A DNA stretch of 32,819 bases from Microthrixaceae bacterium (GTDB taxonomy: Bacteria; Actinomycetota; Acidimicrobiia; Acidimicrobiales; Acidimicrobilacustridaceae). The stretch lies in the NCBI GenBank assembly GCA_947446975.1, contig CANFHM010000026.1:1-32819 (forward strand), read 5' to 3'. How positions within the stretch are numbered: the first letter of the stretch is position 1; each line of letters starts with the position of its first letter. Below the pieces are notes generated by a model. The model ran no database searches, was not told the DNA's origin, and saw only the letters and a program-made list of their open reading frames with translations. Position numbers and translations under genes: made by a program. Of this stretch, positions 26,474-27,536 are shown one piece after another.

Positions 26474-26656
26474 CCTAGCCCACTGTCGGGGCGACCGCTC
26501 CGGTGTCGCACCGACCCATCTGGGTCGCCGCTGGCATCGGTCGATGCGTGATCCGATCGGGATCGAACCATGCGCCATGCACTCGCCCGTGTCCGTCCCG
26601 ACGAGCTCGCGGACGGGCTCTGTGGACGGGTCGGGGACGGTAGCACGGACCCGATG

Positions 26657-26759: not shown

Positions 26760-26781
26760 CCGAAGGCTGCAGGGAGGCCCG

Positions 26782-27273
26782 ATGGTCGAGGAGGCCCAAA
26801 GTGAAGCGCACGTTCCAGCCCAACAACCGCCGCCGCGCCAAGAAGCACGGCTTCCGCCATCGCATGGCCACTCGAGCCGGTCGGAACGTTCTCCGTTCCC
26901 GTCGTCTCAAGGGCCGCGCTCGCCTGTCGGCCTGATCTGGCGCATCCGTGACCGTCGCTCGTTCGTCGAGCTCCGTCGCCGCGGTCGACGCGCCCATGCG
27001 GGCAGTGTCACCGTGACCTTCGCCGCAGCACCGGTGGGGACACCGGCCGAACCACCGCGAGTCGCATTCGCCCTTCCCCGCAAGGTCGGAACCGCCGTGG
27101 TGCGCAACCGCGTCCGCCGTCAGGTCCAGGCCCATCTCCGGTCGGTGGCATCCTCGATGGCCCCCGGCGCGTACCTGTTCACCCTCAAGCCCGGCGCCGC
27201 CGAACTCGACCGCGATGCCCTGCTGCAGGCGGTCGACACCTGCCTCGCCCGTCTCGCACCGAGGGCGTCATGA
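26782..27273 (+). CDS. rnpA: Ribonuclease P protein component (start uncertain; may contain rpmH out of frame)
   Basis: The RNase P protein cofactor for tRNA 5' maturation. The conserved domain starts at about 26935 ([19 protein letters not shown]) and includes [20 protein letters not shown] with the RNR motif. No ATG, GTG or TTG occurs in frame between 26782 and the conserved domain. ATG 26782 has AGGGAGG four nt upstream and would give 163 residues with a Pro/Ser/Arg-rich 50-residue extension, fully enclosing rpmH. The alternative is CTG at 26932, overlapping the rpmH TGA, giving a standard 113-residue protein. Thermus is known for rpmH nested inside rnpA. The gene is certain; the start is not. 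yidD overlaps its end by 4 bp. Confidence 0.88.
26801..26935 (+). CDS. rpmH: 50S ribosomal protein bL34
   Basis: A 44-residue, strongly basic protein: [18 protein letters not shown], then [15 protein letters not shown] and ending KGRARLSA, matching bL34 almost throughout. GTG start at 26801 preceded by GAGGAGG with six-nt spacing. Its whole length is also open in the rnpA frame. It has the standard place next to dnaA and rnpA, in the opposite direction to dnaA. Confidence 0.98.
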
Positions 27274-27536
27274 CCGACCTCCTCATCGAATCCTCCGGGT
27301 CCTCGGTCCCCCTGCTCGCCCGGGGTCCCCATCTGCTCATCCGGGCCTACCAGTGGGTGTTCGCCGGCCGCATCTCGCCCTGCCGGTTCGAACCCAGCTG
27401 CTCCTGCTACGCACTCGAGAGCCTCGAGGTCCACGGTCTCGTCCGTGGGTCGCTGCTGTCGCTCCGACGTCTCGGCCGCTGTCATCCCTGGGGTGGCCAT
27501 GGCTGGGATCCCGTGCCCCGAAAGAAGGCTGCATAA
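27270..27536 (+). CDS. yidD: Membrane protein insertion efficiency factor YidD
   Basis: An 88-residue YidD family protein: [31 protein letters not shown] and [14 protein letters not shown] give the conserved cysteines and the HPW-GG-DPVP end. It is thought to sit at the inner face of the membrane and help YidC-dependent insertion. ATG overlaps the rnpA stop by 4 bp (ATGA), and yidC starts 3 bp after its stop. Confidence 0.96.

Follow-up and report, generated by a model that had tools for sequence, protein, structure and literature searches.

Organization of the rpmH–rnpA locus

The window, that is, the whole stretch of 32,819 nucleotides analyzed here from a Microthrixaceae bacterium, carries dnaA on the reverse strand followed by rpmH, rnpA, yidD, and yidC on the forward strand (Table 1). 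The identities of rpmH, RnpA, and YidD were confirmed with profile searches; dnaA and yidC are names that we assume from the sequence and the gene order. The RnpA domain is nearly complete (positions 6–108 of the 109 in PF00825, E = 5.5e-17), and the protein scores narrowly over the cut-off of TIGR00188 (39.4 bits, cut-off 38.35). Its frame terminates at TGA 27273. The junction between rnpA and yidD (27270–27273) is an ordinary ATGA, which contrasts with the CTGA directly upstream, at the end of rpmH.

Table 1. Features of the rpmH–rnpA–yidD region (SD, Shine-Dalgarno)
Feature	Coordinates	Strand	Remarks
SD-like AGGGAGG	26771..26777	+	4 bases 5' of ATG 26782
ATG, candidate nested rnpA start	26782..26784	+	19 bases 5' of the rpmH start
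Alternative long rnpA (163 aa), rpmH entirely inside	26782..27273	+	open frame from ATG
GAGGAGG, SD of rpmH	26788..26794	+	sequence inspection
rpmH (ribosomal protein L34)	26801..26935	+	GTG start, TGA stop; PF00468, E = 7.8e-21; TIGR01030
CTGA, where the proposed rnpA start CUG overlaps the rpmH TGA	26932..26935	+	sequence, relatives
rnpA read from CTG (RNase P protein, 113 aa)	26932..27273	+	PF00825; predicted start
yidD	27270..27536	+	ATGA overlap with the rnpA stop; profile-checked

The initial annotation had pointed out that, reading back from the RnpA domain, no ATG, GTG, or TTG occurs in frame until an ATG that precedes the rpmH start and has its own AGGGAGG, and that all of rpmH is open in this frame. 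Reading the locus base by base bears out each of these statements. Standard start codons are absent from 26785 to 27012, and the first one 3' of ATG 26782 is GTG 27013, within the RnpA domain. The rnpA frame, which is −1 relative to rpmH, is open back to a stop at 26641, through all of rpmH. This openness says little by itself, because an open rnpA frame across rpmH arises in 45% or 67% of synonymous shuffles, depending on the codon usage taken; we rejected it as proof of a nested gene. Between 26782 and 27020, the codons CTG, ATT, ATC, and ATA are found in the rnpA frame only as CTG 26932, ATC 26935, and ATC 26944. As had also been proposed, CTG 26932 shares bases with the rpmH stop as CTGA, an overlap of just four bases, and gives a protein of normal length.

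Other ways to account for the missing standard start were discarded. Initiation at GTG 27013 would lose domain residues 1–26. In six solved RnpA chains the alignment begins at profile residue 2 or 3, so that such a start would remove conserved residues; R3, R5, D6, R7, F10, L13–R15, G17, R19, and G23 are invariant in an alignment of 11 sequences. An assembly or base error was rejected as well, as the junction is identical in all 21 genomes of the genus. A relaxed initiator tRNA as the reason for CUG use was ruled out: the anticodon arm of the initiator tRNA in this genome is canonical (GGGCTCATAACCC), and we therefore do not propose altered decoding.

The junction within the genus and family

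Of 61 related genomes, counting the window's own, 56 gave an RnpA match, and all of these 56 loci were read; the other five gave none. All 21 genomes of the genus, again including the window's, read GCC TGA TCT GGC, which is CTG ATC TGG in the rnpA frame. The initial annotation had looked to the alignment of relatives for the CTGA overlap, for an open SD-preceded ATG, or else for a normal start right after rpmH. The CTGA is present in 21/21 genomes and the ATG, at −19 from the rpmH start and in an open frame, in five (G000, G011, G012, G008, and G003), and none of the 21 has a normal start at the end of rpmH. Outside the genus, some families carry TTG or GTG at the exact position of the rnpA junction.

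In 15 of the 21 genomes the frame is interrupted by a stop at −24, −108, or −150 relative to the CTG, and between this stop and the RnpA domain no ATG, GTG, or TTG is found; the CTG and the adjacent ATC sit in these genomes at the edge of the domain. A nested start is therefore impossible in all 15, and the sequences rule it out as the general route to RnpA in the genus. The frame is closed inside rpmH in 14 genomes, and by a stop just upstream of rpmH in G017; G013 has an open frame and no SD-preceded ATG at −19.

The last codon of L34 encodes alanine and could also be GCA, GCG, or GCT, which would create ATG, GTG, or TTG, respectively, for rnpA. It is GCC in all 21 genomes, whereas 21 of 26 fourfold degenerate rpmH columns vary within the genus; four further columns are invariant (the start codon and columns 7, 38, and 43). 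Across the window's family, overlapping junctions have CTG in 31 of 32 cases and TTG in one.

The junction codon across the order

A junction pattern blind to the varied base and demanding GCN-TGATC located 140 places in 127 of the order's 298 genomes, and none in the other 171. The survey covers these matches plus the loci from the 61 related genomes; since some of its genomes were selected through a pattern requiring the junction, it shows which base is used and not how frequent the overlap is. Twenty-six of the 140 places were set aside as not rpmH-like (G169, G031, and G102 re-entered through their own loci), and 111 pattern genomes were kept, with G078 left out. Nine loci yielded no rpmH, among them G088, G206, G152, G231, G288, and G145. 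In total, the survey comprises 149 genomes with rpmH and 128 with the four-base overlap, or 125 once G158, G142, and G318, where a standard start may lie further down, are excluded. A filter on the rpmH start codon removed G053 from the upstream-start, tree, and forced-start counts. The record titles of several contigs matching the lineage (Bifidobacterium breve and Acidobacteria, for example) seem to reflect mistakes in naming or binning.

Among the 125 overlapping genomes, from 25 families, the junction codon is CTG in 81, TTG in 32, GTG in 11, and ATG in one, so that the codon at the four-base overlap is most often the one that is not recognized as a standard start, as it is in the window. 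CTG is forced, with no ATG, GTG, or TTG possible, in 33 genomes of eight families; the window's family contributes 15 of these genomes. The 33 fall in 10 separate clades, and parsimony counts 17 changes of the junction codon, on a rough RnpA plus L34 tree of 124 genomes. In 24 of the 33, the open stretch upstream lacks even CTG, ATT, ATC, and ATA. CTG and TTG are both found at the junction within families f1, f3, f10, f20, and f59, and CTG and ATG within f24; since the same families hold both at the same place, CTG appears to swap with accepted start codons. Forced CTG is also present in IMCC26207 (L115), a record not titled as a MAG, and in three sisters (L118, L120, and L121); the same junction turned up when named genomes were scanned, many of which overlap with those already sampled.

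Counted by genome, the base that decides the junction codon is not distributed as in internal alanine codons. Purines occupy this third base of the last alanine codon in 12 of 125 genomes, versus 143 of 437 internal alanine codons of the same genes (p = 6e-8 by genome, a value that overstates independence because the genomes counted are related); by family the scarcity is weak (19 families up, 4 down, Wilcoxon p = 0.11). GCG, the codon that yields GTG, is likewise scarce at the end of rpmH (11/125 versus 109/437 internal); among 62 genomes with neither a forced CTG nor an open upstream SD-start, however, its avoidance is not clear (10/62 versus 49/220 internal). An SD-like 4-mer precedes rpmH in 121 of the 125 genomes, and the rnpA junction in 10; the junction of the window's genome has none.

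Two variants of the junction are worth recording. TTG occupies it in all overlap-counted sampled members of f7 (10 genomes), f28 (five), and f54 (four), with examples at L165, L195–L199, and L178–L181; because TTG is found in every counted member, a weak start may be selected in these families too. In L030 (genome G041, from another family), rnpA is in frame with the rpmH stop (RnpA domain PF00825, E = 5.2e-18), and before the domain begins that stop is followed by a single start-like codon, a CTG nine bases past the TGA, which makes it a candidate CTG start without stop overlap.

A probable CUG start with proposed coupling to rpmH termination

We consider it probable that rnpA starts at CTG 26932, overlapping the rpmH stop, and that re-initiation on CUG after rpmH yields an RnpA of normal length. 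Because of the four-base overlap, termination on UGA places the ribosome one base from the CUG. Ribosomes terminating rpmH would slip back by this one base and re-initiate with the initiator tRNA, giving an RnpA that presumably starts with methionine. As CUG is a poor start and the junction lacks an SD, the share of ribosomes making RnpA should be small: few of those that translate L34 would continue into rnpA, resulting in a low ratio of RnpA to L34. RnpA is presumably needed far less than L34, and a low yield would suit it. Coupling is described as most efficient at spacings from −4 to +3, with exceptions (review, PMC12548453). CUG is described as an inefficient and uncommon bacterial start whose complexes are less stable than those of AUG, GUG, and UUG (PMC11497404), and its inefficiency counts against the CTG reading.

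Alternative starts for rnpA

The main competing account is that RnpA is made in this genome as a protein of 163 residues from ATG 26782, the first 50 read out of frame across rpmH, while the CTG stays idle. By the usual rules ATG 26782, with its AGGGAGG and in an open frame, is the stronger start in this genome, and it has counterparts elsewhere in the order. SD-preceded starts upstream of rpmH number 36 in the rnpA frame, versus four in the rpmH frame and seven in the third; those in the rnpA frame come from 35 of 148 genomes in 13 families, 21 of them at −19 and 10 at −4. The frame is open in 33 of the 35 genomes with such a start (19.4 expected) versus 75 of the 113 without (53.3 expected), and, under other codon weights, in 31 of 32 with a start at −4 or −19 versus 60 of 96 without. 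The starts accompany CTG junctions in 28 of 81 cases versus 4 of 43 for TTG, GTG, and ATG (Fisher p = 0.002, relatedness ignored). Ten have the form ATG-N-GTG at −4, all with an open frame and with the spacing quoted for the Thermus AUGGAUG. As for the 14 genomes of the genus whose frame closes inside rpmH, the ATG at −19 is missing from 13; G004 alone retains it, with the frame closed after it. Other observations count against the nested start. In the 15 closed genomes of the genus it is unusable. The preference of upstream starts for the rnpA frame is weakened as evidence, because it is also seen outside the order, where an upstream ATG falls in the same frame class in 27 of 47 genomes (no SD filter), and at high GC the frame is open with or without a start (19/19 and 26/27). 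Third positions of rpmH, which are the first positions of the extension, diverge alike in open upstream-start and in closed genomes of f1: 0.119 (one pair) versus 0.121 (47 pairs) above 80% RnpA identity and 0.262 (six) versus 0.258 (31) at 65–80%, with the open genomes slightly below the closed ones at 50–65% (0.427, 25 pairs, versus 0.472, 11 pairs). Across these three identity bins of f1 genomes, no clear amino acid constraint on the extension was seen. Moreover, among the 30 genomes that combine an upstream SD-start with an open frame, 27 still end rpmH with GCC, and GCG is never found there (0/30 versus 32/115 internal). The junction thus looks selected also where the upstream start is available, and an idle CTG in this genome seems to us improbable.

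A compromise, which overlaps with CTG initiation, is that this genome makes RnpA in two forms, a long one from ATG 26782 and a short one from CTG 26932. The two sites seem to be preserved both here and in the nearest relatives, G011, G012, and G008; the extension, with no clear constraint, speaks against it, and we regard production of both forms as doubtful. Given the bias outside the order, the openness at high GC, the extension without clear constraint, and the junction that looks selected, we hold the long form as a possible second product and not the main one. A nested start is best seen as possible, judging from the genomes compared, in this genome and in the subset of relatives with an open SD-preceded start, perhaps as a second start. 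Of the two readings left side by side by the initial annotation, then, CTG initiation gained from the comparison, being forced in 15 genomes of the genus and in 33 genomes of eight families, and the nested gene fell as the general mode of the genus, keeping a place in this genome and such relatives. Two further options concern the junction itself. RnpA could begin one codon later, at ATC 26935: all 33 forced genomes have ATC or ATT right after the CTG (the isoleucine codon in all 125 is by construction, because the counting script required it), and the TG of the CTG is already fixed by the TGA stop, so that sequence alone leaves this codon eligible. We consider it very unlikely, however, as 44 of the 125 genomes have T, G, or A as the first base of the junction codon and hence an ordinary start there, and as this base is distributed, by genome, unlike that of internal alanine codons. 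A frameshift at the end of rpmH, producing an L34–RnpA fusion, would fit the −1 frame and the short overlap, but by inspection TCG GCC TGA contains no slippery run, and accepted starts sit at the same site in those 44 genomes; we judge it extremely unlikely.

Upstream ATGs were also read at 20 loci, 19 of them outside the order, and only that of G333, from another actinobacterial family, continues into RnpA. There (L243:101–691), an ATG 19 bases before rpmH opens a frame of 197 aa that crosses rpmH into the RnpA domain (PF00825, E = 1.5e-20, residues 74–180). It is a candidate nested rnpA outside the order, with standard starts further down possible. Inside the order, ATG-A-GTG or ATG-G-GTG is found at the rpmH start in L186–L190 (f16), L154 (f10), L057 (f30), L175 (f55), L029 (f8), and L042 (f2); the first ATG is in the rnpA frame at these loci, and the frame is open.

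Discussion

The arrangement proposed here resembles known systems in part. Conserved poor start codons in core translation genes have a precedent in infC, which starts with AUU and is autoregulated by IF3; the codon, the gene, and the likely purpose differ, a fixed low ratio being what we propose for rnpA. ATGA and TGATG are the overlaps named for start/stop coupling by termination–reinitiation in PMC6728339, in whose main text a word search found no CTGA, GTGA, or TTGA. The rpmH–rnpA junction shares with ATGA-type coupling the downstream start that overlaps the upstream stop by four bases; it differs in that the proposed start is CTG, conserved in a core gene, and in that an SD-like 4-mer precedes the junction in just 10 of 125 genomes. 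In Thermus, rpmH is nested within rnpA, with an AUGGAUG start arrangement (Feltens 2003, as described in PMC9841429). The gene pair is the same, and in the window, too, rpmH is preceded by an ATG in the rnpA frame that has an SD, and this frame is open through rpmH; ten genomes of the order, those with SD-preceded ATG-N-GTG at −4, match the spacing given in that description. Unlike there, the ATG of the window lies 19 bases upstream with its own SD, so that two starts one base apart with a shared SD are not what we find, and 15 of 21 genomes of the genus are unable to use an upstream start. A CUG start for rnpA was not named in titles or abstract openings among the matches listed, most subscription literature being outside the coverage.

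A broader idea, which we put forward tentatively and regard as somewhat unlikely, is that the order has repeatedly switched the start of rnpA between a conserved, purposely weak CUG or UUG at the rpmH stop, a Thermus-like ATG upstream of rpmH, or both. The window's genome would then be a two-start intermediate that produces RnpA in a long and a short form, and the start codon a dial for the ratio of RnpA to L34.

The initial annotation had called either answer unusual, and for a core gene to start at a conserved CUG is, in our judgment, just that. If the CUG start is real, rnpA would be missed or mis-started wherever gene callers accept only ATG, GTG, and TTG, and the locus would offer a natural system for quantifying how the strength of a start codon fixes the relative amounts of two coupled proteins. 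On present sequence evidence, a CUG start of rnpA, placed inside the stop signal of rpmH, is likely in this bacterium and its relatives. Kept across an order in a core gene, it would mean that coupled re-initiation can rest on CUG, and this rare start may serve to keep RnpA scarce beside abundant L34.
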